DNA from: Nonomuraea sp. NBC_00507 | Lineage (GTDB): Bacteria > Actinomycetota > Actinomycetes > Streptosporangiales > Streptosporangiaceae | NCBI RefSeq assembly: GCF_036013525.1 | Contig: NZ_CP107853.1 | Location: 992,001-1,056,000, forward strand | Direction: 5' to 3' | DNA: 64,000 bases | Part shown: piece by piece, positions 31,118 to 64,000 of the stretch | How positions within the stretch are numbered: the stretch's first letter is position 1 | Layout: each line of letters begins with the position of its first letter | The notes under the pieces: generated by a model | The model's database searches: none | What the model was told of the DNA's origin: nothing | The model's input: the letters and a program-made list of their open reading frames with translations, nothing else | Translations under genes and position numbers: made by a program

Positions 31118-31237
31118 CCCACCGTGCCTACCACACTTCCCACTGACTTGGGGTAAATCCAAGGACAGGACTACGAGCTACTCATCGTGACAGACTTGAA
31201 TCACTCGCCGAGGCAGGCAGCGAGTGAAGGAGGCCCC

Positions 31238-35416
<4,179 letters not shown>

Positions 35417-46267: not shown

Positions 46268-47782
46268 CTACTCCCACGTCAGCAGGCGGGACAGCGTGAT
46301 GAGGTGGGAGGAGTTGGTCGCTGTGAAGTTCGCGTACTTCGTACCGACCAGCGCCTTCACCTGGGGATCCCACTCGGTGAGCTCCAGCCACGAGTGCAGG
46401 TAGTAGTCGACCCCGTTGGCCGCGGTCCCGGTGCCGTCGACATACAGGCTGAAGACGGGAGCTGTCGTGGAGTCGTTCCACATCTTCGCCAGCAGCGTGT
46501 TCTTCAGCGCCGTCATGTCGGCGGCCGTGAAGACCTGGGAGCTCCGGTAGAACTCCAAGAACGCCGAGAGATCCACGTTGGCGTGGGAGAGATCCTCCTT
46601 CGTGGTCGTGTAGGTCGCGTAGTTCCAGATGTAGGCCCCGCCCGAGCTGGTCAGGTCGTTGCGGGTCCAGCGCGCCAGGCGGGTCGCCCGGTCCAGGTAG
46701 GTCGGGTTCCCGTTGACGGCGTGCAGCACCATGAGCATGTTCCCGAAGGCCAGTGCCTGGTTGTACGGCAGGTCGCTGGAGACCCTGGTGTGGCTGAATG
46801 CGTCGAAGTTCGGCGATTGCGTGTAGAGGCCCTCGGTGGTCCCGATCGGTTGCCACGTGTTGCCGATGTACGAGCTCGACTCCCACCGCGGGACGATCTC
46901 GTTCTCCAGGAAGGCCCGGTAAGTGGCTGCCTTGGCGGCGTACCCGGAAAGGGCCGGGGTCTGGGCGACGAGGCGGACGAACTCGGCGATGGGGATGCCG
47001 ATCATCCCGTCGTGCACGATGTACGGCAGGACCGCGCTCAGCTTGACGTCGTCGAAGGAGGCCGACCCGCTGACCGTGTAGGACTTGTGCTCCAGCCACA
47101 CCTCCAGCGATCGTCCCGCCGGCAGCGAGCACGTGACCTCCTTGTAGGTCCACGTGCTGGTCGTGTACTCCAGCATGCACAGCGTCGTGGAGCCCTCGCG
47201 CAGCACGATGCGCCCCACGACGGAGCCGGTGCGCTTGCCCCAGCCGCGCAACACGTGCTGGGTGCCGCCCTCATAGGTGCTCGCCACGGGCTGGCGGAGC
47301 TTCTTCCACCTGGTCAGGTCGGAGACGACGCGCACCGACCGGCTGCCCGTGCCGCTCGGGACGTCGGTGGTCCGGTAGATGTGGCTGCCGGTGTCCTGGA
47401 ACCTGGTCCAGTTGGCGGGCAGTGTGGTGTCGCCGCTCGCGGCCGTCTCGAAGCTGGGGTTGCCCAGCTCGACCGGCGAATAGCGGCTGGTGCTCCAGCC
47501 GAGGTAGCCGTCGCCGTCGATGTCGTCGGCATGGGCCAGGATGGTGTCGGTGTGGGTGACCAGCTTGTCGAGCCAATGGGTGTCCTGGGTGGCACCGTAG
47601 ACGTCGAGATAGCTGCGCAGGATGTAGCTCTCGCCCCACGCCAGGTTCGCGCTGCTCTTGTTCGTGTAGAGCGAGTCGCCGATCTGGCTCTCCAAAGCTT
47701 TGTACTTCGTCAGCCACACGCTCTCGGCCGGGACGACGGTGGTGGTCAGGGCCAGGACGGCCGCCACCAGGCTGCGTAACAT
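46268..47782 (-). CDS. secreted alpha/alpha-barrel-like carbohydrate-active protein with inserted CBM-like domain
   Basis: A 504-residue exported protein with a Sec signal peptide (M-L-R-S-L-V-A-A-V-L-A-L, cleavage near A19). Helical-repeat segments (W-G-E-S-Y-I-L-R-S-Y-L-D, D-G-M-I-G-I-P-I-A-E-F-V-R-L-V, N-Q-A-L-A-F-G-N-M-L) resemble glucuronyl C5-epimerase/six-hairpin folds. A beta-rich insertion at about 105-240 (G-N-P-S-F-E-T ... F-D-D-V-K-L-S) is like a CBM4/9 jelly roll. The motif E-D-L-S-H-A-N-V-D is shared with its two neighbours. It is the last gene of the permease operon, overlapping the previous stop by 1 bp. Activity (lyase, epimerase or hydrolase) is not deducible. Confidence 0.7.
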   Translation of the reverse strand: MLRSLVAAVLALTTTVVPAESVWLTKYKALESQIGDSLYTNKSSANLAWGESYILRSYLDVYGATQDTHWLDKLVTHTDTILAHADDIDGDGYLGWSTSRYSPVELGNPSFETAASGDTTLPANWTRFQDTGSHIYRTTDVPSGTGSRSVRVVSDLTRWKKLRQPVASTYEGGTQHVLRGWGKRTGSVVGRIVLREGSTTLCMLEYTTSTWTYKEVTCSLPAGRSLEVWLEHKSYTVSGSASFDDVKLSAVLPYIVHDGMIGIPIAEFVRLVAQTPALSGYAAKAATYRAFLENEIVPRWESSSYIGNTWQPIGTTEGLYTQSPNFDAFSHTRVSSDLPYNQALAFGNMLMVLHAVNGNPTYLDRATRLARWTRNDLTSSGGAYIWNYATYTTTKEDLSHANVDLSAFLEFYRSSQVFTAADMTALKNTLLAKMWNDSTTAPVFSLYVDGTGTAANGVDYYLHSWLELTEWDPQVKALVGTKYANFTATNSSHLITLSRLLTWE

Positions 47783-49305
47783 CAGGCACCCCTGCGCGCG
47801 TGCCAGTTGAGGTAGGCGACGCAGAGCAGGTAGGAGCCCTGCTGCGGCTGGGTCGCCCGGCCGTCGTAGATCGCCCGCGAGTGGGTGAAGACCGTCTCGT
47901 CCCAGGGGGCCACGGCCATCCAGCGCGGTGCCTGCATGTACTGCCCGGCGCTGTTGGTGGCGCCCGAGCCGTTGACGCGCGCGTACGCCGTGGCGATCCC
48001 GTCGGCGCCGGTCGGCGCGACCAGGTTCTTGCTGTAGGTGCGCGCGAAGCGGGCCATGTCGTCGCCGATGAAGGAGAGCTTGTGGCGGAAGGCGGCCACA
48101 GCGAACTCCACGTCGATGGCGCCGTGGCTGAGATCCTCGATCTGCCGGGCGCCGGCGGTGTAGGACGGCGTGAACTCCGAGACGTTGTCCGTCTTGGCGA
48201 AGCCCTGGTAGAGCTTGCCGAACTTCGGCCAGTACGGCCAGACGTAGGCGTCGTCGGCGTCGACGGTGAGGTCCAGGGAGAAGGTGTGGCCCATCCGGCG
48301 TACCCGGTCGCGGTAACGGTGGTCGCCGGTGGCGGCGGCGAGCTCGGCGAAGGTCTGGCCGAGTGAGACGCTCTGGTTGATGGGCTGCTCGGCGCCGTCA
48401 TAGGCGAGCGGCGTCCCCTTGTTCCAGACGTAGTAGCCGCGGCCGTCCTCCGTCTGGCGCCACTCCTCGTCGTGCACGGCGGCGGCGTCCTTGGCCGCCT
48501 TGAGGAACTCCAGCGCCTTGCTCTTGTATCGCGACCAGAGCGAGGGGTTGGCCAGCACCGTCCTGGCGAACGTGGCCATCGGATAGGTGATCATGCCGGT
48601 GTGCACGCTGAAGATGACCGGCTGCGAGACGAAGGAGGTTGGTCCTTGGGCGGGCGTCGCGTTGCCGGAGGGGGACTCCCGCAGGTCGCGCGCCGTTACC
48701 ATGGTCGGGGTCGGGTAGGCGTCGTAGATGCGCTTGACGGCGTAATTCGCCGACGCCGGGTCCAGCGAGAGGTCGGCGAATCTCGCCACCGTGTTGTTCC
48801 AGTTGTTCTTGACCTCCAGCGAGAAGCTGCCCTCGGCGCTGCCGGTCGTGACCGTCGCGACCGCTTGGTCGGCGTAGGCCAGCGCGGTGCGTACCTGCAG
48901 CAGCGGCGTGCCGTCGGCGTCCTTGAGCGTGGCGAAGCCCACCGTGTAGGGGTGCAGGGCGCGCCAGGCGGGCAGCGACTTGCCTCGATGGTCGGTGACG
49001 CCACGGGCGGAGTCGCGGTTGGCCAGCACCTGCTCGACGTTCTCGACCAACCGGTCGAGGTAGTGGGTGTCCTTGTAGGCCTCCCACATGCGCATGAAGC
49101 CCATCAGGACGTACGACTGGCCCCAGGCCAGCGCGCCGTGCTCGTTGTTGTCGGTGGGCTTGCCGATGCCGGTACCGCTGTGGAAGAGCCGGTCGAACAG
49201 GTCGAAGGTCTCCCTGGAGGTGTAGTCGTAGGCCGATGAGCTGGAGAAGCCGAGCGCGCCCACGGCGAGCGCGCCCAGGCCGAACTGCCGTCGGGACAGG
49301 TGCAT
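47782..49305 (-). CDS. Tat-secreted alpha/alpha-barrel-like protein, paralogue A
   Basis: A 507-residue protein with a twin-arginine-type signal (S-R-R-Q-F-G-L-G-A-L-A-V-G-A-L-G-F). The mature part has the helical segments L-A-W-G-Q-S-Y-V-L-M-G-F-M-R-M, H-T-G-M-I-T-Y-P-M-A-T-F-A-R and Y-V-W-P-Y-W-P-K-F-G-K, and the shared motif E-D-L-S-H-G-A-I-D-V-E-F. Many Trp, His, Asp and Glu residues suit a carbohydrate-active site. A beta-sandwich-like region may lie at about 115-215. It sits 2 bp after paralogue B in the operon. I do not recognise a named family; a polysaccharide lyase or uronyl epimerase is the most likely class. Confidence 0.7.
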   Translation of the reverse strand: MHLSRRQFGLGALAVGALGFSSSSAYDYTSRETFDLFDRLFHSGTGIGKPTDNNEHGALAWGQSYVLMGFMRMWEAYKDTHYLDRLVENVEQVLANRDSARGVTDHRGKSLPAWRALHPYTVGFATLKDADGTPLLQVRTALAYADQAVATVTTGSAEGSFSLEVKNNWNNTVARFADLSLDPASANYAVKRIYDAYPTPTMVTARDLRESPSGNATPAQGPTSFVSQPVIFSVHTGMITYPMATFARTVLANPSLWSRYKSKALEFLKAAKDAAAVHDEEWRQTEDGRGYYVWNKGTPLAYDGAEQPINQSVSLGQTFAELAAATGDHRYRDRVRRMGHTFSLDLTVDADDAYVWPYWPKFGKLYQGFAKTDNVSEFTPSYTAGARQIEDLSHGAIDVEFAVAAFRHKLSFIGDDMARFARTYSKNLVAPTGADGIATAYARVNGSGATNSAGQYMQAPRWMAVAPWDETVFTHSRAIYDGRATQPQQGSYLLCVAYLNWHARRGA

Positions 49306-49307
49306 GG

Positions 49308-50687: not shown

Positions 50688-50690
50688 GAA

Positions 50691-51506
50691 CTAGCCCTTC
50701 ACTGCGCCTCGCATGCCGTCGAGGACGTGGCGTTGCATGAGCATGAAAACGATGACGACCGGGATGATCGACATGATCGTTCCGGCGGCGAGTGTGCGGA
50801 CATCCGTGCCCGTGATCCCGGCGAGGTAGGAGATCCCGAGCGCGAGCGGGTACTTCGCGGAGTCCTTCAGCACGACCAGCGGCCAGATGAAGCTGTTCCA
50901 GACCGAGATGAAGCCGAAGATGCTCAGGATGGCCAGTGTCGGGCGGGCGGCCGGCAGCATGACGTGCCAGAAGATGCGCAGCTCGTGGCAGCCGTCGGTG
51001 CGCGCGGCGTCCACGACGTCGCGCGGCACGCCCGCGAAGGTCTGGCGGAGCAGGAAGATCCCGAAGGCGGACAGCAGGCCGGGCAGGATGACGCCGGCGA
51101 ACGTGTCGGCCATGCCGAGCTGGGTGACCACCAGGAACCGCGGGATGAGCATGAGCTCGCCCGGCAGGAACATCGTGGACAGGATGGCGAAGAAGACGAC
51201 GGTGCGCCCGCGGAAGTGCATCTGGGCCAGCGGGTAGGCGCACAGCGCCGAGACGATGACGTAGGCGGGCACCGTCAGTCCGACGTAGATGACGGAGTTG
51301 AGCAAGTAGGTGGGGTAGGGGATGGAGGTCCACGCCTCGATCACCCAGTTCAGCACCGGCGGCCGGGGGATGATGTCCGGCGGGAAGGAGTAGACGGCCT
51401 GGTCGGCGGGCTTGAGCCCGGCCGACAGCAGGATGAGGAACGGCCCCACGAAGACCAGCGCGATCGCGGTCAGCAGGATGTACATCCCCGCGCGCCGAAG
51501 GATCAT
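50691..51506 (-). CDS. ABC sugar transporter permease, MalG/UgpE type
   Basis: A 271-residue carbohydrate-importer (CUT1) inner-membrane permease with six TM helices. The cytoplasmic EAA loop V-D-A-A-R-T-D-G-C-H-E-L-R-I-F-W lies at about residues 180-195, and P-L-A-R-x-type residues typical of MalG end the protein near V-L-D-G-M-R-G-A-V-K-G. ATG at 51506 overlaps the stop of the MalF-type gene (ATGA). It pairs with that permease and with the divergently encoded binding lipoprotein. No transporter ATPase is in the window, so a shared MsiK-type ATPase is likely. Confidence 0.94.
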   Translation of the reverse strand: MILRRAGMYILLTAIALVFVGPFLILLSAGLKPADQAVYSFPPDIIPRPPVLNWVIEAWTSIPYPTYLLNSVIYVGLTVPAYVIVSALCAYPLAQMHFRGRTVVFFAILSTMFLPGELMLIPRFLVVTQLGMADTFAGVILPGLLSAFGIFLLRQTFAGVPRDVVDAARTDGCHELRIFWHVMLPAARPTLAILSIFGFISVWNSFIWPLVVLKDSAKYPLALGISYLAGITGTDVRTLAAGTIMSIIPVVIVFMLMQRHVLDGMRGAVKG

Positions 51507-52384
51507 GCGATGACCGTCCTTCCGCGGGTGATCCGGTAGTTGAGGATGGCCAGGCCGATCATCAGCACCCACAGGACCAGCCCCATGGCGCTCGCGTAGC
51601 CCATCTCGTAGCGCTCGAAGGCCGCCGACCAGATGTAGTAGCCCAGCGTGAGCGTCGCGTCCTGAGGCCCGCCCTTGGTCATCACGTAGATCGAGGTGAA
51701 GGCCTGCATCGCGTCGAGCATCTCCACGGTGATCGCGACCGCGATGTAGGGAATGAGCAGCGGAACGGTGATGCTCCGCAGGCGGTGCCAGGCGTTGGCG
51801 CCGTCCACCCGCGCGGCCTCGTAGATGCTCGCCGGGATGGTCTGCAGGCCGGCGAGGTAGATCATCATGTAGAAGCCCATGTTCTTCCAGCCTTCGACCA
51901 GGATGACCGCGGGCAGAGCCCAGGCCGGGTCGAGGAGGTACTGGATCGGCTCGTCGAGCAGGCCGGCGCCGGTGAGCATCCAGTTGAGGACGCCCTGCTG
52001 GTGGAAGACGTACTCCCAGGCGATGCCGACCGCGACCATCGACGTCACGACCGGCAGGTAGTAGAGCATCCGGAAGGTCTTGACGCCGGGCAGCTTCTGG
52101 TTGACCAGTACGGCCAGCAGCAACGGCACCACGACCAGCAGCGGGAACATCCCGACGAGGAACAGGACCGAGTTGAGCAGCGCGGTCCAGAACCGGCCGT
52201 CGCCGAGCATGCGGACGAAGTTGTCCACGCCCACGAAGACGGGTGGCGGGGAGATCATGTCGTACTTGAAGAACGACAGCTGGATCGCCGTCACCGCAGG
52301 CCAGGCGAAGAAGACGCCGAACAACACGAGCGCCGGCGCGGCGAAGAGATAGGGCGTGTACCAGCGCTGTCCGGGTATGCGCAT
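51503..52384 (-). CDS. ABC sugar transporter permease, MalF/UgpA type
   Basis: A 293-residue CUT1 permease with six TM helices and the EAA loop Y-E-A-A-R-V-D-G-A-N-A-W-H-R-L at about 185-200. The opening P-Y-L-F-A-A-P-A-L-V-L-F-G-V-F and the short periplasmic loop before TM3 mark it as a sugar-importer subunit. It is the first gene of the five-gene minus-strand operon that includes the three secreted proteins, which ties uptake to extracellular processing. Confidence 0.94.
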   Translation of the reverse strand: MRIPGQRWYTPYLFAAPALVLFGVFFAWPAVTAIQLSFFKYDMISPPPVFVGVDNFVRMLGDGRFWTALLNSVLFLVGMFPLLVVVPLLLAVLVNQKLPGVKTFRMLYYLPVVTSMVAVGIAWEYVFHQQGVLNWMLTGAGLLDEPIQYLLDPAWALPAVILVEGWKNMGFYMMIYLAGLQTIPASIYEAARVDGANAWHRLRSITVPLLIPYIAVAITVEMLDAMQAFTSIYVMTKGGPQDATLTLGYYIWSAAFERYEMGYASAMGLVLWVLMIGLAILNYRITRGRTVIA

Positions 52385-52432
52385 GGCTTCACACCCTTCC
52401 TTGATGATTGTGACGGCCGTAGATCAGATAAT

Positions 52433-52542
52433 GGATGGCCAGAAGTTATACAGACTTGATACAGACGGTCAATAGCTGGACCTTGACCGGCAAAATCTGA
52501 GCTGTCATTCTGCCGAAAGAAGAGATTAAGGACGGCCAGAAT
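52433..52542. promoter_or_regulatory. divergent control region with repeated GGAYGGCCAGAA and ATACAGAC motifs
   Basis: GGATGGCCAGAAG (52433-52445) recurs as GGACGGCCAGAAT (52530-52542), and ATACAGAC occurs twice, at 52448-52455 and 52459-52466, one helical turn apart. They lie in the 173-bp gap between the permease operon and the binding-protein operon, so one regulator could control both. The second GGACGGCC copy is just upstream of the binding-protein gene start. Confidence 0.5.
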
Positions 52543-52557
52543 CGAGGACCCCCCGCG

Positions 52558-53841
52558 ATGTCCCGTAGGTTTGCCTTAGTGACAGGCGCGCTGGCGCTGT
52601 CGCTCCTCACCACCGGCTGCGTGGCCGGCACGTCCACCAACGCCCCGGCTGCCGTCGACGACCAGCCCTTCGAGGGCGAGGTCGAGTTCTGGACGATCAA
52701 CCTCAAGAAGAACTACAGCGACTACATCGACGGGCTCATCGCCGGCTACCAGAAGCAGCACCCGAAGGTCACGATCAAGTGGGTCGACGTGCCCGGCCAG
52801 GAGAGCGCGACCAAGCTGCTGGCCGCCGTGGCCAGCGGCGACGTGCCGGACGTCGTCAACGTCAGCTCTGTGGAGCTCGGCCGCTTCGTCCCGTCGCTGA
52901 CCCCGCTCGACGAGCTGCTCAAGGCGGAAGACCTGGCGGACTTCCAGCCCAACCTGGTGGAACCGCTGCGCACCGACGGCAAGCTCTACGCCGTGCCCTG
53001 GTACAACGGCGGCGCTCCGGTGGCGATGTACCGCAAGTCCGTGGTGAGCAAGGCCGGCTTCGACGAGGCCGCCCCGCCGAAGTCCTACGACGAGGCGCTG
53101 GAGTTGGGCGACAAGGTCTACAAGGAGACCAAGGTCTACGGCTCCAACATCATCCCGGACCACAACGTGCTCCGCTACTACGGCATCAGCCTGCTGTCGG
53201 CGGACAAGAAGAAGGCCGAGTTCAACACACCACAGGCCGTGGAGATCCTGGAGAAGTTCAAGAAGAGCTACAAGAGCGGCATCGCGCCGGGCGCGATCTC
53301 CAAGGACATCCGCAACCTGCCCCAGAGCCTGGAGAACGAGCAGGTCGCCTTCAAGCCGACGGCCAACGCCGCCGAGCTGCTCAACATCCAGAAGAACTCG
53401 CCCGACGTCTACAAGGACCTGGTCATCACCGAGCCGGTCCAGATGAACACCGGCAACTACCTCCTCCTGGCCCAGCAGGCCTTCTCCATCCCCAAGGCCT
53501 CCAAGCACAAGAAGGCGGCCGCCGAGTTCCTCAAGTACGTCACCAACGGCGCCAACCAGCTGGCCTTCTGCAAGATCGTGCCGATCTACCCGTCCACGAT
53601 CTCCTCCACCAAGGACGCCTTCTTCACCCAGGCCGAGAGCGGCGACGCGATGGGCGCGGCCCGCCAGGTCATCGTGAAGGGGCTGGCCAAGCTCGAGTAC
53701 AAGCCCATCGGCACCAGCAAGGACGCCGAGCTCGGTGAGTACCTCTCCGAGGAGGTCAGGGCATTCCTGTCGGGGACCAAGAGCGCCAAGGAGGCGCTCG
53801 ACACAGCAGAGAAGCAATGGAATGACGCACTTGCCTCCTAA
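52558..53841 (+). CDS. sugar ABC transporter substrate-binding lipoprotein
   Basis: A 427-residue extracellular binding protein of the CUT1 family. The lipobox is L-T-T-G-C (Cys at residue 21), after a short n-region with S-R-R. The fold has the usual type 1 SBP blocks (V-E-F-W-T-I-N, G-D-V-P-D-V-V-N-V, Y-A-V-P-W-Y-N-G-G-A-P-V-A-M-Y-R-K). It partners the two divergently transcribed permeases. The ligand is probably an oligosaccharide released by the secreted proteins. Its 3' end overlaps the next gene by 20 bp. Confidence 0.94.
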   Translation: MSRRFALVTGALALSLLTTGCVAGTSTNAPAAVDDQPFEGEVEFWTINLKKNYSDYIDGLIAGYQKQHPKVTIKWVDVPGQESATKLLAAVASGDVPDVVNVSSVELGRFVPSLTPLDELLKAEDLADFQPNLVEPLRTDGKLYAVPWYNGGAPVAMYRKSVVSKAGFDEAAPPKSYDEALELGDKVYKETKVYGSNIIPDHNVLRYYGISLLSADKKKAEFNTPQAVEILEKFKKSYKSGIAPGAISKDIRNLPQSLENEQVAFKPTANAAELLNIQKNSPDVYKDLVITEPVQMNTGNYLLLAQQAFSIPKASKHKKAAAEFLKYVTNGANQLAFCKIVPIYPSTISSTKDAFFTQAESGDAMGAARQVIVKGLAKLEYKPIGTSKDAELGEYLSEEVRAFLSGTKSAKEALDTAEKQWNDALAS

Positions 53842-54817
53842 GCTCAGAGTCGGGATCATCGGCACCGGCATCATGGGACGCGGCCACGCCGAGGTGCTGG
53901 CCGCGCACCCCGACGCCGAGATCACCGCCGTCTGCCGCAAGCCGCTGGCCGAAGCGCCGGTGTTCCCGACGTACCGCGAACTGATCGGGTCGGGGCTCGT
54001 CGACGCGGTGTCGATCACTACGCCGGACCACCTGCACGCGGACATGATGGTGGCCGCGGCCGAGGCCGGTCTGCACATCCTGGTCGAGAAGCCCTTCACG
54101 ACCACGGTGGAGGACGCCGACCGGGCCGTGCGGGCCATCCGGCAGGCGGGCGTGGTCGCCATGTGCCTGTTCAACCACCGCTGGGTGCCTGCCTACGCGC
54201 AGGCCAAGGACCAGATGGGGGTGATCGGCGAGCCGGTCGTCGGCTACGCGCGCAAGGACGACACGATCTACGTGCCGACCGAGATGATCGGCTGGGCCGA
54301 CCAGACGACGTGTGCGTGGTTCCTGTCCAGCCACGACATCGACCTGCTGACGTGGCTCTACGACGATCACGTCGTGGAGGTCTTCGCCACCGCCCGGTAC
54401 GGCAAGCTGCGCGACCGCGGCATCGACACGCCCGACGCCGTGCAGATCCAGGCCCGTTTCAGCCGCGGCGCAGTGGCCACGTTCGAGTCGGCGTGGATCT
54501 ACCCCAACACGTTCCCGACGATGGTCGACAGCTACGTCACCGTCGTCGGCGAGGACGGGGTGATCCAGCTGGACCGGCAGAAGGAGAACATCCAGCTGGC
54601 CACCGACAAGGCCTACACGTACCCGCGCAACATGCTGCAGCGGGTCGTGCACGGCGTGCCCGCCGGCGCGTACCGGGATGCGATCCATCACTTCGTGGCG
54701 TGCGCGCGCACCGGCACCGAGCCGCTGATCACGGTGGAGAGCTCGCGCCACGTCACTGCGGTGCTGGCGGCGGCGCACGAGTCCGTCCGGTCGGGTCTGC
54801 CGGTGAAGGTCTCATGA
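53822..54817 (+). CDS. Gfo/Idh/MocA-family dehydrogenase
   Basis: A 331-residue NAD(P)-dependent sugar dehydrogenase. The Rossmann motif is I-I-G-T-G-I-M-G-R-G-H, then the catalytic V-E-K-P-F and the substrate-side H-R-W-V-P-A-Y and S-S-H-D-I-D-L-L blocks. The start (ATG 53822) lies inside the binding-protein gene, so it is coupled. It is the second gene of a plus-strand operon that continues with heparinase-like and amidohydrolase genes, and probably oxidises or epimerises the imported sugar. Substrate unknown. Confidence 0.9.
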   Translation: MTHLPPKLRVGIIGTGIMGRGHAEVLAAHPDAEITAVCRKPLAEAPVFPTYRELIGSGLVDAVSITTPDHLHADMMVAAAEAGLHILVEKPFTTTVEDADRAVRAIRQAGVVAMCLFNHRWVPAYAQAKDQMGVIGEPVVGYARKDDTIYVPTEMIGWADQTTCAWFLSSHDIDLLTWLYDDHVVEVFATARYGKLRDRGIDTPDAVQIQARFSRGAVATFESAWIYPNTFPTMVDSYVTVVGEDGVIQLDRQKENIQLATDKAYTYPRNMLQRVVHGVPAGAYRDAIHHFVACARTGTEPLITVESSRHVTAVLAAAHESVRSGLPVKVS

Positions 54818-56439: not shown

Positions 56440-57160
56440 CGCGATGCTCGGGCGCCACCCCCGCAGGGACGTGGGCACGGGCTCGATCACGGAGGCGCTG
56501 GACAGGATGGACCGCTTCGGCATCGCGGAGGCCGTGGTCAGCCACACCCTGTCATGGCTGCACGACCCCGCGACGGGCAACAGGGAACTGCTCGGCCTGG
56601 TCGCCGATCAGCCCAGGCTGCGCCCCTGCTGGGTGCTGCTGCCCGCCACCTGCGGCGAGACCGGCACCCCGGACGAGTTCGTGACCGCCGCGCTGGAGTC
56701 CGGGGTATGCGCCGTCCGCGCCTACCCCGCCGACCACGGCTACGACCTCGCCGGCGGCGACTGCGCAGCCATGCTCGGCGCGATCGCGGAGGCCGGGCTG
56801 CCGCTGCTCGTGGACGCGGCCCAGACCGGCTGGCCCGCGGTGGAATCCGTCGCCGCCGAACACCCGAAACTGAGGACTGTGGTGGGCGCGCTCGGCTACC
56901 GCCAGCTAAGGCAGGCGGCCGGGGTGCTCTCGCGTACCAGTAACGTCTACCTGGGCCTGGCCAACTTGTCCTCGCACTGCGGACTCGAATGGCTCGTCGA
57001 GCGTTACGGCGAGCGCCGTCTCGTCTTCGGCACGGGCGCGCCGCTCAGAGACCCGGCCGAGGCGGTCACTCGGCTGCTGTGGTCGGAGCTCGACGACGGG
57101 GCCGTGGCGGCCATCGGCGCCGGCACCCTGCTGGACCTGCTACCCGTGAGGGCGGTGTGA
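56423..57160 (+). CDS. amidohydrolase_2-like protein lacking metal ligands
   Basis: A 245-residue TIM-barrel protein collinear with the next gene's product, but with every metal or catalytic position changed. The first-strand D-A-H-A-H of the paralogue is D-A-D-A-M; I-K-I-H-P becomes V-R-A-Y-P; the T-H-T strand becomes V-D-A; G-H-A-G becomes A-L-G-Y; and G-S-D-F-P becomes G-T-G-A-P. It is intact in frame, overlaps the heparinase gene by 17 bp and is itself overlapped by the intact amidohydrolase (GTGA). It probably acts as a non-catalytic partner subunit (inference). Confidence 0.8.
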   Translation: MLIDADAMLGRHPRRDVGTGSITEALDRMDRFGIAEAVVSHTLSWLHDPATGNRELLGLVADQPRLRPCWVLLPATCGETGTPDEFVTAALESGVCAVRAYPADHGYDLAGGDCAAMLGAIAEAGLPLLVDAAQTGWPAVESVAAEHPKLRTVVGALGYRQLRQAAGVLSRTSNVYLGLANLSSHCGLEWLVERYGERRLVFGTGAPLRDPAEAVTRLLWSELDDGAVAAIGAGTLLDLLPVRAV

Positions 57161-57963
57161 ACGCGATCACCTCCGCGCTGTGGCGGCGCCGCCCGCAGAC
57201 CAGCGTCAGGATCGTCGACGCACACGCGCACGCCGGCCCCTACAGCCTGTTCTTCATCCCCGATACGTCCCCGGACGCGATGGTCAGGGTGATGGACAGG
57301 TGCGGCGTGGCGCACGCCGTCCTCTCCAGCCACCTGGCGATCCAGCTCGACGCGGCGGCGGGGAACGCCGCGACCGCCGAGGCGGTGGACCGCGCGCCGG
57401 ACCGCTTCACCGGGTATCTGACGATCAACCCCTGGCAGGACCCCGACGGCGAGCTGGGCAAATGGGGGGCGGATCCGCGCTTCGGCGGCATCAAAATCCA
57501 CCCCGACCTGCACGATTACCCGCTCACCGGCAGACGCTACGCCGGTGTGTGGGAGTTCGCGCAGCGCACCGGCTGCCCTGTGCTCACCCACACCTACGAC
57601 GGCTCTCCCTACAACGACCTGGCGGAAGTGGACGCCGTCGCGTCGGAGCATCCCGACGTGGTGATCATCGCAGGGCACGCGGGCGCGACCCCGCTCGGTT
57701 TCGAGAAGGCCATAGAGGTGGCGCAGCGGCGCCCAGGTGTGATCCTGGAGGTGTGCGGGTCCTTCAACACCGGGCCCGACATCGCCAGGATGGTACGGGA
57801 GGTCGGGGTCGACCGAGTGGTCTACGGATCCGACTTCCCCTTCATCGATCTTCGGATCTCGCTGGGGAGGGTACTCTTCAGTGGCCTCGGGGAGAAGGAC
57901 CAGGCCGCGGTGCTCGGTGCGACGATGACCCGCTTGCTTCAGTGGAGATCCGGACTGGGGTGA
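57157..57963 (+). CDS. amidohydrolase family protein (PF04909-like)
   Basis: A 268-residue metal-dependent TIM-barrel hydrolase or decarboxylase. Ligands are all present: V-D-A-H-A-H-A (HxH), I-K-I-H-P, L-T-H-T-Y-D, I-A-G-H-A-G, and Y-G-S-D-F-P. Family members include sugar lactonases (for example L-rhamnono- or galactaro-lactone hydrolases) and decarboxylases; in a sugar-catabolic operon with a dehydrogenase, a lactonase role is attractive but unproven. The start is GTG at 57157, overlapping the previous stop. Confidence 0.88.
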   Translation: MNAITSALWRRRPQTSVRIVDAHAHAGPYSLFFIPDTSPDAMVRVMDRCGVAHAVLSSHLAIQLDAAAGNAATAEAVDRAPDRFTGYLTINPWQDPDGELGKWGADPRFGGIKIHPDLHDYPLTGRRYAGVWEFAQRTGCPVLTHTYDGSPYNDLAEVDAVASEHPDVVIIAGHAGATPLGFEKAIEVAQRRPGVILEVCGSFNTGPDIARMVREVGVDRVVYGSDFPFIDLRISLGRVLFSGLGEKDQAAVLGATMTRLLQWRSGLG

Positions 57964-57971
57964 TCAAGATC

Positions 57972-59285
57972 ATGGATCGGCTGCGTTCGGAGTCGAGGTC
58001 CAGAGTGGCGATCGGGATCGTAGGGCCGCACGATCTCGTCGAAGAGATCATGATGATCGGCGCCGACCTTCCTGCCGCGGCCGACTGGCGGCTGGTCGGC
58101 GCGCCGCATGCCGAGGAGCACGAGACATACGACAAATTCCTGCGGATCTCCGACAGCATCGACGTGGTGCTCTTCACCGGGCCGCTCCAGCACGACCTGG
58201 CCAGGCAGGCGGGCGAACTGCTGGTCCCTGCCACATTCGTGCCCATGAGCGGGGCCAGCCTGTACGCCAGCCTGCTGCGCGGGGTGCTCAGTCACGGGAT
58301 CGACCCGTCCAGGGTGAGCATCGACTCGCTGCCCGCCGCCGACGTGGACGAGGCGTACGGTGAGATCGGCGTGAGCACGGCCGGCGTGCACCTCTCCGAG
58401 TACGACCGGCCGGAGTCGGCGCGCGGCTTCAGCGCCTTCCACGAGCAGCTCTACCGCCAGGGGGAGACCACGGCGGCGCTCACCACGATAAGGAGCGTCG
58501 CCAACAAGCTGACCGCCGCCAGGGTGCCCGTGCTGCGCCTGCTGCCGACCTCCCACACGTTGCGCCTCGCACTCAACACCGCCGCCCTGCTCGGCACCGG
58601 CAGCAGGCTGGAGGACGCACAGATCGCCATCGTGGTCGTGGAGCTCGCCGCCTCCGCCAAGCCCAATTACTCCGGGCCGGGCAACTACTGGCAGCAGGAG
58701 CTGAAACTGTCGCTGCACCGCTCGCTGCTCGCCGACGCGCGGCTGATGGGCGCCACGGTGGTGCCCCGAGACGAGAACAGCTACGTCGTCACCGCCACCG
58801 TCGGTGCTCTCAATCAGGCCACCGACGGGTTCAGAGTGGCGCCGTTCATGGACCGGATCCACTCCGAGGCCGGGGTCGCCGTCGAGGTCGGCATCGGGCT
58901 CGGAAGCACGGCCCGCGACGCCGACGCCAACGCGCTGGCGGCCGTCGAGAAGGCGCGCCACGCAGGGGCCGCCGCCGCGTACCTGGTCGGGGGCGACGGC
59001 ACCGTGCTGTCTCTGCCGGTGCGCAGGCGCAAACGGCAGGAGAGCGAGCCCGCCGTCGCCACCAGAGCGGCCAAACTGCTCGAACGCCTGGTGGAAAGCC
59101 TCGACGACAGCGACACGATGGTGGTCGACGCCGAGATCGTCGCCGACGTGCTGTCTGTCTCTCCGCGTAGTGCTCGCCGGGTTCTTCAGAGCCTCGCGGA
59201 GGAGGGGCTGGCCTGGCCGATGCCCCCGGTCAAGGGCACCCAGGCGGGCCGGCCGCGCCAGCCGTACCGGCTCGTGCGAGCCTAG
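57972..59285 (+). CDS. putative transcriptional regulator with nucleotide-cyclase-like and winged-helix domains
   Basis: A 437-residue cytoplasmic protein. The N-terminal ~160 residues (A-I-G-I-V-G-P-H-D-L-V-E-E-I) look like a PrpR_N-type or Rossmann-like sensory domain. The middle (about 205-350), ending G-I-G-L-G-S-T-A-R-D-A-D-A-N-A-L-A-A-V, has the C-terminal pattern of GGDEF/nucleotide-cyclase folds without an obvious GGDEF motif. The C-terminal ~70 residues (V-L-S-V-S-P-R-S-A-R-R-V-L-Q-S-L) form a helix-turn-helix. ATG at 57972 has GGGGTGA 8 bp upstream; GTG at 57960 is possible. It ends the operon and is a likely regulator of it. Confidence 0.68.
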   Translation: MDRLRSESRSRVAIGIVGPHDLVEEIMMIGADLPAAADWRLVGAPHAEEHETYDKFLRISDSIDVVLFTGPLQHDLARQAGELLVPATFVPMSGASLYASLLRGVLSHGIDPSRVSIDSLPAADVDEAYGEIGVSTAGVHLSEYDRPESARGFSAFHEQLYRQGETTAALTTIRSVANKLTAARVPVLRLLPTSHTLRLALNTAALLGTGSRLEDAQIAIVVVELAASAKPNYSGPGNYWQQELKLSLHRSLLADARLMGATVVPRDENSYVVTATVGALNQATDGFRVAPFMDRIHSEAGVAVEVGIGLGSTARDADANALAAVEKARHAGAAAAYLVGGDGTVLSLPVRRRKRQESEPAVATRAAKLLERLVESLDDSDTMVVDAEIVADVLSVSPRSARRVLQSLAEEGLAWPMPPVKGTQAGRPRQPYRLVRA

Positions 59286-59724
59286 GCGTCGCCGAGGCGC
59301 ACACGCGAGCCGTACCTTTCCAGCAGCCGGGCGTTGTGTGCGTCCGGGGTGTTGGCCGACCGGAAGACGGGAGGCGCCTCGCCGGCGGCGAGGAAGCGGC
59401 CGCCAGTCGTTCGTCCACGACCAGTCCGGCGGTGTGCGCGCGAGAGGTGATGGCGACCACCTGGTGCCCGTGCCGCACCGCGAGGCGGGCCATCTCGACG
59501 ATCGCCGCATTGCCGCCCGAGTTCGAGATGATCACGAAAACATCCTCCGGCCGGATGTCGGCCAGCTCCCAGACGCGCGCGGCCAGGCCGGGCTCGCGCT
59601 CGATCTTCGGGTCGAGGATGTCACGCGGTGAGGCGTCACCGTAGTAGACGATGTCGCATTCGGCGGTGAGCAGCCGGTCCACGGCCGATCTGGCGATCTG
59701 CGCGTACGCGCTCTGGTCGATCAC
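59282..59724 (-). pseudogene. SIS-domain sugar isomerase gene, decayed by deletions and a frameshift
   Basis: The frame opens with GTG at 59724 overlapping the ceramidase-like stop (GTGA) and encodes clear SIS-domain sequence (L-D-P-K-I-E-R-E-P-G-L-A-A-R, then V-F-V-I-I-S-N-S-G-G-N). Two segments expected in intact homologues are missing: after L-L-T-A-E-C-D (the first sugar-binding G-T-G-H-S region) and after T-A-G-L-V-V-D-E-R-L. At the second point the frame also changes: the conserved C-terminus (F-L-A-A-G-E-A-P-P-V-F-R-S-A-N, then H-N-A-R-L-L-E-R-Y) is only read in another frame ending at TAG 59282-59284. About 147 codons remain of roughly 240. A working sugar isomerase is unlikely. Confidence 0.82.
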
Positions 59725-60932
59725 AAATCCTCCAGCAGCTGTCGTGCGGTCTCGGCGATCAGTTCGGCGCTGCCCGGAGCCACCTGGCTGGCCAGCACTT
59801 CGTACTCGGCGTGCTGGTAGGCGCCCGCCGTCGGCAGGTAGCCGGGATACCCGTTGACGTAGCCCAGGACCAGCGTCGGCTCGCCGGGCCGGTCGGCGAT
59901 GCGCTCGGCGACAGCGAGGAACGGCTCGCCGGGCAGCCCGGCGAGGGCGAGCCCGCCGAGGCGGGCGACGTTCACGTCGACGCCCGTCCGGACGGGCCGT
60001 GCGGTGCGGGCACGCAGTCCTTCGAGCCTGCTGCGGGCCAGACGGGTGGCGACCGGGTCGCCCGACGCCGCGGCCTGCTCGTACCCGGCGATGAGCGCCG
60101 CCTCGTCGGCCGTCGTGGAGGTGGGTTCGAGCGTCAGGCGTCGCGTGGCGCAGGAGATCCACCGGCCGGCCGCTCCGGCTCGCCAGAGGGGCATCCCCGG
60201 ACCTGCCAGCAGGTCGGCGCAGCGGTCCGCGACGAGCGCACCCAGGCGTTCCAGCTCCGCCGCGTCCTGGTCTCGCCTGGTGTGGCGGGTGCTGATGTCA
60301 CCGGCCGCGCCGGTGGCGACCACCACCCAGACGTCCTCGCCGAGCCGCTTCCTCAGACTCCTGCGTACGGCTCCGACCAGGTCGGCGCTGACCAGGCGGT
60401 TCGTCGCGGGCAGCACGGTGGGGTGCACGGGAAGGACCACCAGGATCCCGGCGAGCCCGCCGTCATACACGGCGATCAGGTCGAGCGGAACCACGGCGGG
60501 CGCTCGTGGTCTGCTCCGATCGGAGCCGACGCCCTGCAGTTCGCCGCGGTACACCGTGCCCTCGCACGGCCTCTCCCTGTCGATCGCCTGCCGTACAGCC
60601 GTGGCGACCGCCTCGGTGACCCGTTCGAGCCATGGCTCGGGCGTCGGCCCGCCGCCTGGTACGCAGCCGGTCTCGGGCCCTGCGTGGGTGTGGCTCGCCG
60701 CCAGCCACAGCTCGCATCCGGCCGCCTGCCTGGCCCGCCTGGCCAGGTCCTCGTTGACGCAGATGATGTCGGCGGTCGCCAGCGCGAACCGCCTCTCGCC
60801 GTCCGACCAGGTCAGCGCGCTCACCGACAGCGGGTCGGCCAGCCCCGTGGACGGCCCCGGCCGGTCGAGGTAACCGCCCATCGGCGTGCCGTCCGGTACG
60901 GGCAGATCGGTGGTGCCGTATCCCACTCTCAT
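59721..60932 (-). CDS. neutral/alkaline ceramidase-like domain protein
   Basis: A 403-residue cytoplasmic protein with the N-terminal fold of neutral ceramidases: R-V-G-Y-G-T-T-D-L, L-A-T-A-D-I-I-C-V-N, A-A-S-H-T-H-A-G-P-E-T-G, and V-V-A-T-G-A-A-G-D-I-S near the zinc-site region. It lacks a signal peptide and the C-terminal domain of true ceramidases. Such short homologues often occur in sugar-catabolic clusters and may be amidases or deacetylases acting on modified sugars. The ATG overlaps the BadF-kinase stop, so both are co-translated. Confidence 0.82.
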   Translation of the reverse strand: MRVGYGTTDLPVPDGTPMGGYLDRPGPSTGLADPLSVSALTWSDGERRFALATADIICVNEDLARRARQAAGCELWLAASHTHAGPETGCVPGGGPTPEPWLERVTEAVATAVRQAIDRERPCEGTVYRGELQGVGSDRSRPRAPAVVPLDLIAVYDGGLAGILVVLPVHPTVLPATNRLVSADLVGAVRRSLRKRLGEDVWVVVATGAAGDISTRHTRRDQDAAELERLGALVADRCADLLAGPGMPLWRAGAAGRWISCATRRLTLEPTSTTADEAALIAGYEQAAASGDPVATRLARSRLEGLRARTARPVRTGVDVNVARLGGLALAGLPGEPFLAVAERIADRPGEPTLVLGYVNGYPGYLPTAGAYQHAEYEVLASQVAPGSAELIAETARQLLEDL

Positions 60933-61810
60933 CGTTCCGCCGTTCTGATCATCGCCTGGTAGCGGCCGGGCCCTGCGGAGGCGGCCAGCAGGGCGGCGCC
61001 CGCGAGACTGTCACCCGCAGGGGGGTGGAGCCTCGCTCTGGGGAGCAGCCGGGCCAGCTCCGCCTCGAACCCGGTACGGAGCCCGGAGTCACGCAGCAGG
61101 CGGCCGGTCCACGCGACGGGCACCGCCGTTCCCTCCGCGAAGCAGCGGGCTGCCGCCGCCACCGTGCCCGCCAGTTCGCGGGCCGCCTCCTCGGCGATGG
61201 CCCGGGCCGTACGGTCTTCCGTCAGCTCCAGGACGTGGACCGCGAAGCGCGCGATCCGCGCCACCGCGTCGGGGGCGAGGTAAAGGCGTCCGGGCAGGCC
61301 GGCCAGGTCGCCGAACACGGCCTGGGCACGCTCGGTGAGCGGGCCCGGTTCCGCGCGCCCGTCGAAGCCCCGGCAGGCGGCGTCGAGGCCGCGGCGGCCG
61401 ATCCAGAAGCCGCTGCCCGCGTCGCCGTAGAGGTAACCCCAGCCGTCCGCCTGCCGGATGTCGTCACCCACGCCCAGTGCGATCGCTCCGGTGCCCGCGG
61501 CCAGCACCACGCCCTTGCCGCCCGAGAACGCGCCCGCGTGCGAGGTGACCACATCGGTCGTGATCATCACCCGGCGGGCGGTGGCGAGCAGGTGGCCGGC
61601 CAGTTTGCCGGGATCATCCAGGACCGTGGTCAGCCCGAGGCAGATGGTGCCGAGTTCCCCCCATCCCCTCCCGATCCGCTCCAGCACGGCCTTGACCGGG
61701 GAGCCCTCCGCGTACGACAGGCCGGGCAGCTCGCGGATCTCCTGGATCCGCCCCCGCTCGGCCAGACCGAGCCGCAGGCCCGTCTGCCCGCCGTCGATCG
61801 CCAAGTCCAT
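60929..61810 (-). CDS. BadF/BadG/BcrA/BcrD-type sugar kinase (N-acetylglucosamine kinase-like)
   Basis: A 293-residue ASKHA-fold ATPase. The phosphate-1 motif is A-I-D-G-G-Q-T-G-L-R, and A-A-G-T-G-A-I-A-L-G-V-G is the phosphate-2 block, followed by the family's D-A-G-S-G-F-W-I-G-R-R segment. Homologues phosphorylate N-acetylglucosamine or related amino sugars with ATP. Position next to a SIS-domain gene supports an amino-sugar phosphate route. It follows the AraC gene by 16 bp. Confidence 0.87.
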   Translation of the reverse strand: MDLAIDGGQTGLRLGLAERGRIQEIRELPGLSYAEGSPVKAVLERIGRGWGELGTICLGLTTVLDDPGKLAGHLLATARRVMITTDVVTSHAGAFSGGKGVVLAAGTGAIALGVGDDIRQADGWGYLYGDAGSGFWIGRRGLDAACRGFDGRAEPGPLTERAQAVFGDLAGLPGRLYLAPDAVARIARFAVHVLELTEDRTARAIAEEAARELAGTVAAAARCFAEGTAVPVAWTGRLLRDSGLRTGFEAELARLLPRARLHPPAGDSLAGAALLAASAGPGRYQAMIRTAER

Positions 61811-61826
61811 GAAAACACCGTCCTGG

Positions 61827-62909
61827 TCACGATCCGGGCCGGAATCCCGCCCGGCGGTACTCGGTGGGAGAGCAGCCGACGTGGCGGCTGAACGCGCTCC
61901 GCAGCGCCTTGGCGCTCGGGTAGCCCGTGTGCGCGGCGATCACGTCGACCGGCAGGGTGGTGGTGGACAGCAGCCGGCGCGCATGCCGCAGACGCAGGCC
62001 CGTCAGGTGGCGCAGGAACGTGGTGCGGCGCTCCTCCGCGAACAGGTGCGAGATGTAGAACGGGCTCGCGCCCACCGCCTGCGCCACCGTCGCCAGGCGC
62101 AGCCTCGGGTCGGTGTAGTTCTCGGCCAGGTACGCTTCCGCCAGCGCGAGCACATCTCTGCGTGGCGGCTCGGGCATCAGCCGCCCGAGCGTCTCGCGCA
62201 GCCACATGTGCAGGTAGGAGCGCTCGTGGATATCGCCGACCGCGACGATGTCCTCGATGGGCAGCCGGGCGCACGTCACGACCCAGTCGGTCGAACCGTC
62301 GGCCAGCCTGGCACGGTTGGCCACGTCCACGACGAACAGCAGCTGCCCGATGAGCCAGTCGCGCAGAGTCTGGGGGTCGGCGTCGCGAGCGCACCTGTTG
62401 ACCCAGCTCGCAAGCAGCCCTGCCGCGCCGTTGCTGTCGCCCGCGCGGACACGCCTGGTCAGCTCCCGCTCGATCCGTACGGGTGGCCCATCGACGGATA
62501 TCGCGGCCACTCTGCCACCGGCCTGCGGCTCGATCACCCGGTCGCCGCCGAGCACGAGCTTGTAGCCGTTGACCCGCCGGGCGTCCCGCTCGGTCGCGAT
62601 CGAGCCCACGCTGGGCGAGCCCAGGCTGACGGTGGCGGTGCACGCCGTCTCGCGGACGATCCTGGCGCGTACTTCCTCCGCCAGCGCGGTCGCGTCGGAC
62701 ATCAGCGCGTCGGGATCGGCTCCCGTCAGCAGGACGAGCCACTCCTCGGGCGGCTGTGCGCGGCAGGTCGCCCCCGGGCGGCCGCTGGTGGCCGCGCGCA
62801 CCGCCTGGTCGGCGTGCCGGAGCTGACGCTGTGCCCATGACCGCCCGCGAGCCTGCTCGGAGACCATGAAGTCGTCGATGTCCACCAGAGCAGCCACAGC
62901 GTAGGTCAT
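61827..62909 (-). CDS. AraC-family transcriptional regulator with degenerate GGDEF-like N-terminus
   Basis: A 360-residue regulator. Residues about 1-130 (A-A-L-V-D-I-D-D-F, then A-T-V-S-L-G-S-P-S-V-G) resemble a degenerate GGDEF/cyclase fold, the middle is helical, and residues about 255-355 carry the two AraC helix-turn-helix motifs (L-A-T-V-A-Q-A-V-G-A-S-P-F-Y-I-S-H-L-F, then V-D-V-I-A-A-H-T-G-Y-P-S). It is 9 bp downstream of the FAH-hydrolase gene and upstream of the kinase. A copy of the ACCGAAATTTG motif lies 18 bp before its start. Confidence 0.9.
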   Translation of the reverse strand: MTYAVAALVDIDDFMVSEQARGRSWAQRQLRHADQAVRAATSGRPGATCRAQPPEEWLVLLTGADPDALMSDATALAEEVRARIVRETACTATVSLGSPSVGSIATERDARRVNGYKLVLGGDRVIEPQAGGRVAAISVDGPPVRIERELTRRVRAGDSNGAAGLLASWVNRCARDADPQTLRDWLIGQLLFVVDVANRARLADGSTDWVVTCARLPIEDIVAVGDIHERSYLHMWLRETLGRLMPEPPRRDVLALAEAYLAENYTDPRLRLATVAQAVGASPFYISHLFAEERRTTFLRHLTGLRLRHARRLLSTTTLPVDVIAAHTGYPSAKALRSAFSRHVGCSPTEYRRAGFRPGS

Positions 62910-62918
62910 GTCTCTACT

Positions 62919-63776
62919 TTAGGCGGACCGAAATTTGACCGTATTTACCAGCGTTCCGATTCCCTCCACCGTCGCCCGCATGGTGTCGCCGTCTTCGAGC
63001 GGGGCGATCCCGGCGATGGTGCCGGTCGCGATGAGGTCGCCTGGCATCAGCGTCATCCCGTCGGACAGGTCGGCGATGAGCCGGGGGAGGCCGAAGACCA
63101 TCTGCCTGGTATTGGCCCGCTGCCTGACTTCGCCGTCCACTTCCAAGGTCAGCTCCAGCGCCTGTGGATCGGGCACTTCGTCCACCGTCGCCAGGTACGG
63201 CCCCGCAGGCGCGAAGGTGTCGAACCCCTTGGACTGGTCCCACGGCACGTTGCGGGCGATGTTGGCCAGTTGCAGGTCGCGCGCCGTCATATCGTTGATC
63301 ACGGTGTATCCGGCGACGGCCTCGCGCCACCGTTCGGCCGGCAGGTCCCTGGTCACCATGCCGATGACCACGGCCAGCTCGACTTCGTGCTCCAGATGAC
63401 GGGTACGGGCAGGGGCGAGCACCGGGTGGTTGTGGCCCACGAGCGCGGACGGCGGCTTGAAGAACAACACCGGCTCCGGCGGAACCTCCAGGCCGCTCTC
63501 GTCCGCGTGCTCCTGGTAGTTCAGCGCCAGACAGCAGATCTTCGTGCAGGTGGCCACGGGCGGCTCGAAGAGCACGGCGTCCTCGTCCAGCGTGGGGCCG
63601 TCGCGGTCGGCCACCAGGTCGGTCAGGCGGTCGAGCCCGTACGAGTCCAGGGCCGCGACTGGATCCGATCCGAGGTCCGGGCCGAGGTCGGCCAGGCTCA
63701 CCAGCTCGCCGGCCGTGCGCCGGGCCACCAGCTCGACAGGGCTGGAGGGGGTACGCCGAATACGTCCAAGAAACAT
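62919..63776 (-). CDS. fumarylacetoacetate hydrolase (FAH) family protein
   Basis: A 285-residue metal-dependent enzyme of the FAH superfamily. The C-terminal catalytic part shows L-N-Y-Q-E-H-A-D-E-S, L-F-F-K-P-P-S-A-L, the metal-site E-H-E-V-E-L-A-V-V-I-G and Y-T-V-I-N-D-M-T-A-R-D-L-Q. In sugar clusters such proteins hydrolyse or dehydrate 2-keto-3-deoxy acids or diketo sugar acids, which suits a uronate/aldonate pathway. I took ATG 63776 as start; a GTG 24 bp upstream (63800) with GGAGG close by is an alternative. Confidence 0.88.
   Translation of the reverse strand: MFLGRIRRTPSSPVELVARRTAGELVSLADLGPDLGSDPVAALDSYGLDRLTDLVADRDGPTLDEDAVLFEPPVATCTKICCLALNYQEHADESGLEVPPEPVLFFKPPSALVGHNHPVLAPARTRHLEHEVELAVVIGMVTRDLPAERWREAVAGYTVINDMTARDLQLANIARNVPWDQSKGFDTFAPAGPYLATVDEVPDPQALELTLEVDGEVRQRANTRQMVFGLPRLIADLSDGMTLMPGDLIATGTIAGIAPLEDGDTMRATVEGIGTLVNTVKFRSA
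62927..62937. promoter_or_regulatory. ACCGAAATTTG motif, copy 1
   Basis: ACCGAAATTTG at 62927-62937 lies 18 bp upstream of the AraC gene start, within the last codons of the FAH gene. An identical copy is at 63815-63825 upstream of the FAH gene. In a GC-rich genome an AT-rich 11-mer repeated before two adjacent genes suggests a regulator site, possibly AraC autoregulation. Confidence 0.35.
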
Positions 63777-63891
63777 GTCCGTAAGCCCATCAAGGCCCAC
63801 CGACCTCCACAAGCACCGAAATTTGCGCTTACGACCTGCTTCTTGCTCTCTTTCTTGTCGCCGGGCGAGGTGTCCCCGTTTTATGGTCGGC
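63777..63891. promoter_or_regulatory. divergent promoter region, FAH hydrolase versus aminotransferase, with motif copy 2
   Basis: This 115-bp gap separates two divergent genes and is less GC-rich than its surroundings. It contains the second ACCGAAATTTG copy at 63815-63825, 39 bp upstream of the FAH start. No clear -35/-10 pair was resolved. Confidence 0.4.
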
Positions 63892-64000
63892 ATGACCCGG
63901 ACTCTGGACCTCAGCCGCGACCTCTACACCACTGCCCAGCGTTACATCGCAGGCGGCGTCTCCAGCGACGCGCGCCGTACCGCGGGGGTGCCGCTCTACG
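63892..64000 (+). CDS. class III aminotransferase (glutamate-1-semialdehyde aminomutase-like), 3' truncated by window
   Basis: Only the first 36 codons are visible, starting at ATG 63892 (M-T-R-T-L-D-L-S-R-D) and running into R-Y-I-A-G-G-V-S-S-D-A-R-R-T-A-G-V-P-L-Y. The I-x-G-G-V-S-S-x-x-R pattern is the hallmark N-terminus of class III PLP aminotransferases of the glutamate-1-semialdehyde 2,1-aminomutase group. Divergent from the FAH gene, it is probably part of the same catabolic island, maybe handling an amino group of the substrate. Confidence 0.75.
   Translation, partial: MTRTLDLSRDLYTTAQRYIAGGVSSDARRTAGVPLY

Follow-up and report, generated by a model that had tools for sequence, protein, structure and literature searches.

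Gene content and layout of the locus

We analysed a 64,000-nucleotide stretch of the Nonomuraea sp. NBC_00507 genome (the window; positions 992001–1056000 of a 12.7-Mb contig, with all coordinates below in window numbering), whose right-hand part carries a putative polysaccharide-utilisation locus around hep, a gene for a heparinase II/III-type lyase (Table 1). Two operons, starting at 52384 on the minus strand and at 52558 on the plus strand, diverge from a 173-bp intergenic region. The reading frames are backed by the third-position GC content, which is ~0.8–1.0 across most of the region. Pfam matches identified both CUT1 permeases, SBP_bac_1, GFO_IDH_MocA, Hepar_II_III_N/C and two Amidohydro_2 proteins. 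The divergent operons with a shared promoter region, described in a prediction made earlier from the DNA letters (the original prediction), were thus found in place and with the families named.

A second group faces the plus-strand operon, in the minus-strand order sis-cer-bad-araC-FAH, with Pfam matches to FAA_hydrolase, BadF-type ATPase and SIS_2; AT3 diverges from FAH and runs past the window edge. The gene types foreseen for this group and for the aminotransferase at the edge were correct; the SIS gene proved to be a degraded remnant instead of an intact gene, and the AraC-type regulator had been overlooked.

Table 1. Features of the hep locus in window numbering
Feature	Description	Position	Strand	Basis
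g1	secreted protein, g2 paralogue with a long insertion	46268–47782	-	Sec-type signal by eye
g2	secreted protein, predicted (alpha/alpha)-barrel; core locus member	47782–49305	-	twin-arginine-type N-terminus by eye
g3	g2 paralogue without 43 residues	49308–50687	-	comparison with L051, L052
permC	CUT1-type ABC permease (start is a choice)	50691–51512	-	PF00528
permB	CUT1-type ABC permease	51503–52384	-	PF00528
promoter region	shared, divergent; two exact copies of GGNYGGCCANAA	52385–52557	.	
sbp	solute-binding lipoprotein	52558–53841	+	PF01547; lipobox LLTTGC by eye
gfo	Gfo/Idh/MocA oxidoreductase	53822–54817	+	PF01408
hep	heparinase II/III-type polysaccharide lyase	54814–56439	+	signal peptide absent (by eye)
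amh1	amidohydrolase-2 fold protein, metal ligands replaced	56423–57160	+	Pfam, alignment
amh2	amidohydrolase-2, metal ligands intact	57154–57963	+	Pfam, alignment
reg	regulator with GTP-cyclohydrolase-III-like domain (start is a choice)	57942–59285	+	PF05165, 22.3 bits (cut-off 21.3); C-terminal helix-turn-helix by eye
sis	degraded SIS-domain phosphosugar-isomerase gene	59230–59724	-	PF13580, partial
cer	short neutral-ceramidase-like putative zinc amidase	59721–60932	-	sub-threshold Pfam, profile search
bad	BadF-type ATPase, predicted NagK-like amino-sugar kinase	60929–61810	-	PF01869
araC	AraC-type regulator	61827–62909	-	PF12833
FAH	fumarylacetoacetate-hydrolase-family enzyme	62919–63776	-	PF01557, 222 bits; start chosen by comparing relatives
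AT3	class III aminotransferase, glutamate-1-semialdehyde aminomutase type	63883–64000, on to 65193 outside the window	+	family via 88%-identical relative from L059

Conservation of the locus

To follow the locus across genomes, we collected 25 loci by using hep as bait in a scan of titled genomes of bacteria and archaea. They span Nonomuraea, Rhizohabitans, Streptosporangium, Kribbella, Microlunatus and Phytoactinopolyspora, the highest-identity titled relative being Nonomuraea sp. G32 (hep 97% identical). The core gene order is maintained in 25/25, as far as the stored sequence reaches: permB, sbp, gfo, hep and amh1 were present in every locus, and g2, permC, amh2 and reg in 24 each, the exceptions (L067 and L055) lying at the ends of stored sequence. 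In Phytoactinopolyspora (L073), gfo and hep each appear as two pieces. The remaining genes were found less often: AT3 in 16 loci, FAH in 15, araC in 12, cer in 7, g1 in 6, bad and sis in 5 each, and g3 in 2. A match had to cover 60% of the query and lie in the stored flanks, and the counts are lower bounds: sis was searched with a truncated query, and its count leaves out the SIS genes of L064, L065, L069, L072 and L074.

We also searched genome samples, scoring a limited number of candidates per genome (2–3 for hep and g2 in the class and phylum samples, up to 51 for amh1, 32 for AT3 and 34 for cer), so that absences are uncertain. In the class sample, hep occurred in 7/394 genomes, all seven with the permeases, sbp, gfo and amh1 alongside, and g2 in 9/394, five genomes having both (G000, G131, G200, G209 and G226). 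The phylum-wide sample contained hep in 1/396 genomes, namely the source genome of the window, and the genus sample in 22/54 (E 1e-30). Matches to amh1 (E 1e-20) were found in 41/54 genus genomes and split by identity: 23 genomes, comprising all 22 with hep and one other (G423), had at least 57%, and the remaining matches 34–43%. AT3 (L059 query, E 1e-100) was found in 20/54, every one hep-positive; the two hep-positive genomes without it (G402 and G429) carry the most divergent hep. For cer (E 1e-40), 18/54 genomes gave matches, 11 at 60% identity or above, all hep-positive, and 7 at 44–47%. Fisher tests of co-occurrence with hep gave p-values of 3e-14 (amh1), 7e-13 (AT3) and 7e-6 (cer), which are indicative only, the genomes being related and the identity lines having been set after the tables were viewed.

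The core order in 25 loci and the co-occurrence of hep, amh1 and AT3 in the genus rule out an accidental neighbourhood. We also considered that the whole facing group, AT3 included, is a separate neighbouring locus, apart from the divergent operons. Of the 20 genus genomes with AT3, 3 have it on a different contig from hep and 5 have it 13.8–46 kb away, and cer stays 3.5–4.8 kb from AT3 in 11/11 genomes, so that the group can form a block of its own. However, AT3 was found only in hep-positive genus genomes, and in the four Kribbella loci it directly follows reg. Because AT3 is distant or on another contig in 8/20 genomes, its co-occurrence with hep is independent of adjacency. We regard a separate locus as improbable. 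The core genes travel together, and the contrary outcome, genes occurring separately, did not arise for them; the claim of a single gene set is not supported for the accessory sis-cer-bad group.

The lyase and the amidohydrolase pair

The structure model of hep predicts an (alpha/alpha) toroid joined to an antiparallel beta-sheet, as in PL12 heparinase III. The catalytic triad of heparinase III 4MMH is given as Asn240, Tyr294 and His424 in PMC12088678. In a profile alignment, the Asn and Tyr of hep align directly with those of 4MMH; its His lies in HELE[PS]HSH and matches the 4MMH His with a 2-residue gap placed by eye. The triad motifs are kept in 32/32 sequences. Against the NCBIfam HepC models hep scored 61.9 bits (cut-off 700) and 42 bits (cut-off 600), below the family level. 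The fold, the profile and the triad motifs support the uronate-type lyase that had been proposed for the locus.

The second amidohydrolase, amh2, retains HxH, Lys, His, His and Asp in 30/30 sequences, of which we take HxH, His, His and Asp to be the metal ligands of PF04909 amidohydrolases. In amh1 the metal ligands are gone in 31/32 alignment rows, and we read the remaining row as a fusion aligned through its amh2 half. This fusion, in Microlunatus speluncae (L071:12190–13803), combines in one reading frame an amh1 half with an amh2 half that is intact; by eye, the amh1 half keeps a single His (DAHV), the other ligands being gone. Since the metal-less partner is conserved and was fused once to the active-type one, these sequences suggest that amh1 and amh2 act as a functional pair. 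They provide a clear example of a conserved pair in which one amidohydrolase is metal-less and the other metal-bearing.

The secreted g1/g2/g3 family

Three secreted alpha/alpha-barrel-like proteins had been foreseen in the minus-strand operon. g1, g2 and g3 are paralogues (g1 against the g2-family profile, hhalign probability 99.8), and this profile–profile relationship rules out three unrelated secreted proteins. None matched a Pfam family at E 0.001, and all fell below every Pfam and NCBIfam threshold used; at a relaxed E of 5, GH88 matched g2 weakly (0.017) and DUF6475 matched g3 (0.18). The structure model of g2 is a predicted (alpha/alpha)-barrel. g1 weakly matched a GH76 mannanase in the PDB, over residues 330–384 only (E 7.6e-4), and the g2 model shares the barrel fold of GH76. 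PDB searches with the g2 sequence alone and with the g2 profile were uninformative, the best rows of the latter being antibody chains (E 0.017). The insertion in g1 resembles a carbohydrate-binding beta domain by eye. Relative to L051 and L052, g3 has an in-frame 129-bp deletion (43 residues), and it is probably impaired in the strain under study. The barrel is therefore upheld for the g2 model, and the predicted trio becomes a set of paralogues with one shortened member. As a separate observation, an N-acylglucosamine 2-epimerase-family gene (L041:3703–4917) adjoins sbp in the g2-less loci L041 and L042.

Amino-sugar genes

The bad product scored 48.6 bits against the NCBIfam NagK model (cut-off 370), and cer 25.2 bits against the Pfam ceramidase family (gathering cut-off 32.1). 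A single-sequence search with cer gave no matches; a profile of seven relatives found neutral ceramidase in the PDB at 3.9e-11. The HTH, VH, PGE and GY positions of cer, invariant in 7/7 relatives, align by eye count with H97/H99, H204, E411 and Y448 of 2zws, presumably the zinc ligands of neutral ceramidase. Intact SIS relatives of 242–246 residues are found in L060, L063 and L064. The window gene is degraded, and in the close relative L051 another internal deletion has occurred; because the two are damaged differently, independent decay of sis in the source strain and L051 is suggested.

In Kribbella, NagB-like, SIS and NagA-like genes adjoin FAH in L069, and L072 and L074 hold relatives of all three; the L069 SIS protein reaches its NCBIfam cut-off. 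An amino-sugar arm had been part of the original prediction, and these genes, in 3/4 Kribbella loci, strengthen it. Since the core is accompanied by different amino-sugar genes in each of two lineages, the gene comparisons support the presence of a hexosamine in the substrate.

Import, downstream enzymes and regulation

The locus encodes a CUT1-type importer, with a binding protein and two permeases. Actinomycete CUT1 sugar loci use a shared ATPase encoded elsewhere, and the genome contains six OB_MalK matches outside the locus, four of them over the cut-off, as candidate shared ATPases. No NCBIfam equivalog cut-off was reached by gfo, and no substrate-specific NCBIfam cut-off by any island protein.

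FAH matches the L-2,4-diketo-3-deoxyrhamnonate hydrolase 8gsr (E 3.7e-44) and scores 189.9 bits with NF053535, the model for 2,4-diketo-3-deoxy-L-rhamnonate hydrolase. These matches favour a sugar-acid pathway of the non-phosphorylating type, as for L-fucose and L-rhamnose, in which Gfo would form a lactone, amh2 would open it, FAH would cleave a 2,4-diketo-3-deoxy acid and hep would be incidental. Lactonases are known in the amh2 superfamily. Hydrolysis of 2,4-diketo acids by members of the FAH family is a step of the L-rhamnose and L-fucose pathways (8gsr; PMC11199699). However, no sugar-acid dehydratase was found among the island genes or the 20 flanking genes of relatives run through Pfam (part of the flanks), FAH scores higher with HpaG-type entries and lies far under the NF053535 cut-off of 500, and the hep triad motifs are kept throughout. 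Such a pathway appears very unlikely.

In the shared promoter region, GGNYGGCCANAA is present at 52433–52444 and 52530–52541, the only two matches in 64 kb (0.25 expected; 2/100 shuffles reach 2). Among 32 such regions, 17 contain the motif, in 22 copies, as compared with a maximum of 2 in 500 single-base shuffles; the counts were made on the very sequences from which the motif had been read by eye, and in two cases a pair of regions represents a single genome. No copy is present in the Kribbella, Microlunatus, Phytoactinopolyspora and Rhizohabitans regions, in 2/3 Streptosporangium regions or in L075. We treat this sequence motif as only a lead.

Other genes of these neighbourhoods were noted in passing. 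A second reg-type gene with the GCH_III-like domain (L007:7213–8622) lies downstream of the island beside murA-, purC- and purD-like genes (named by eye), and in Nonomuraea terrae and N. aridisoli (L061 and L070) one lies between a class I/II aminotransferase gene and g2. In the window, a class I/II aminotransferase gene (45202–46260) adjoins the island and occurs in 8/25 loci, and a 1409-residue hybrid histidine kinase with seven HAMP matches is encoded at 31187–35416.

A proposed pathway

We propose, with a probability of roughly 0.55, that the locus is a catabolic system for an acidic hetero-oligosaccharide, combining cleavage outside the cell, CUT1 uptake and cytosolic beta-elimination of an oligosaccharide of uronate and N-acyl-hexosamine (HexNAc). 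Secreted g2-family (alpha/alpha)-barrel enzymes would cut the polymer outside the cell, and the lipoprotein and the two permeases would import the oligosaccharide, presumably energised by one of the candidate shared ATPases. The cytosolic hep, judged by its fold and motifs, would break the bond at uronate C4 by beta-elimination, yielding HexNAc and an unsaturated uronate. The hexosamine may pass to the BadF kinase, SIS and the ceramidase-like amidase, or in three of the four Kribbella loci to the NagA/NagB/SIS-type products; the uronate arm may employ the Gfo oxidoreductase, amh1/amh2, the FAH-family enzyme and the aminotransferase, perhaps in that order, one possible route being oxidation of the keto-deoxy uronate by Gfo followed by FAH. 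Through the shared promoter, reg probably governs both operons. Cleavage of HexNAc-(1→4)-uronate by a cytosolic lyase would free HexNAc and an unsaturated uronate in one step, which would fit a NagK-type kinase without an above-threshold GH88 in the island.

Several observations weigh against this proposal. No GH88-family enzyme above the Pfam threshold was found in the island, which would therefore leave disaccharides with an unsaturated end unopened. The search for NagB in this genome yielded a single Glucosamine_iso match, a 6-phosphogluconolactonase, and this weakens the case for the standard NagK-NagA-NagB route here. In this strain sis is degraded, cer and bad occur in just 7/25 and 5/25 loci, the stored flank of the fourth Kribbella locus (L068) contains no NagA/NagB/SIS group, and the L069 NagA-like and NagB-like proteins scored 148.7 (cut-off 225.65) and 124.5 (cut-off 326), respectively, with NCBIfam. 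The best FAH matches are HpaG-type isomerase/decarboxylases, not sugar-acid hydrolases. g2 was not found beside hep in the stored stretches of L041 and L042, and g2-family genes also occur elsewhere; their neighbours are an SBP_bac_5 transporter and a DegT aminotransferase in L046, and a GH123-like gene in L044. Finally, loci baited with hep are silent on the frequency of the other genes in its absence, and amh1 was found once without hep (G423).

The points on the amino-sugar genes bear on a further alternative, a purely uronic (alginate- or pectate-like) polymer or oligomer, with hep as an oligouronate lyase and the amino-sugar genes as unrelated neighbours. The attachment of different amino-sugar genes to the same core in two lineages speaks for a hexosamine, and we consider a purely uronic substrate unlikely. 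Another way of processing unsaturated uronates may be encoded elsewhere: of two KduI-family matches in the genome, one is IolB and the other (L083) lies at 10.37 Mb beside L081, which the GH88 family model picked out and whose best NCBIfam match is BglB (144.2, cut-off 420).

A complete pathway can be drawn, and we hold it to be rather unlikely in its full form. The g2 family, as a new enzyme family, would release HexNAc-uronate oligosaccharides, Gfo would oxidise the unsaturated uronate set free in the cytosol to a 2,4-diketo-3-deoxy acid, and FAH would cleave this into pyruvate plus a C3 acid, so that KduI/KduD would be by-passed; the metal-less amidohydrolase would be the obligate partner of the active one, and the glutamate-1-semialdehyde-type aminotransferase would finish the C3 unit.

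The lyase and the amino-sugar genes agree with the original prediction of a polymer containing both uronic and amino sugars, with glycosaminoglycan, bacterial polysaccharide and alginate as candidate substrates. Conservation also supports one co-inherited locus, and with it the predicted island coupling secretion, uptake and degradation. No named pathway with this gene set emerged from the NCBIfam results or from the open-licence literature searched, where no paper linked a heparinase-type polysaccharide lyase to Nonomuraea or Kribbella or a heparinase to Streptosporangium, and nothing on ceramidase appeared among the papers listed. This is a genuine conserved utilisation locus made of known superfamilies, for which the libraries and literature searched gave no name.

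Comparison with known systems

The degradation of acidic polysaccharides that contain amino sugars is best documented in Bacteroides-type bacteria and, to our knowledge, is little described in soil actinomycetes. The conserved locus, with its unnamed secreted family, intracellular PL12-like lyase and unexplained downstream enzymes, can be tested directly and may lead to a missing pathway. What makes it interesting is the secreted family, the amidohydrolase partner that lacks metal ligands and the unusual group of downstream enzymes.

Each part of the locus has a known counterpart from which it departs. hep shares its predicted fold and Asn/Tyr/His motifs with PL12 heparinase III (HepC, 4MMH; BT4657, 5JMF), whereas its identity is ~18%, a signal peptide is absent and its setting is an actinomycete CUT1 locus. 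The g2 family resembles the (alpha/alpha)-barrel enzymes of GH76, GH105 and GH88 and the N-acylglucosamine/cellobiose 2-epimerases, but is only 6–13% identical to them and has its own conserved residue set, the GH88 profile match being weak. As in N-acetylglucosamine catabolism (NagK/NagA/NagB), there is a BadF kinase, and NagA-/NagB-like genes accompany the core in 3/4 Kribbella loci; in contrast, no NagB was found in this genome, and a ceramidase-like amidase stands where Kribbella has the NagA-like gene. The FAH-family enzyme is related to the diketo-acid hydrolases of the non-phosphorylating L-fucose and L-rhamnose pathways, from which the island differs in having a lyase and no dehydratase seen. 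Finally, like other actinomycete CUT1 sugar loci, it has a lipoprotein, two permeases and no ATPase gene; unlike the ordinary ones, it unites a lyase, an amidohydrolase pair, an FAH-family enzyme and an aminotransferase in one conserved set.

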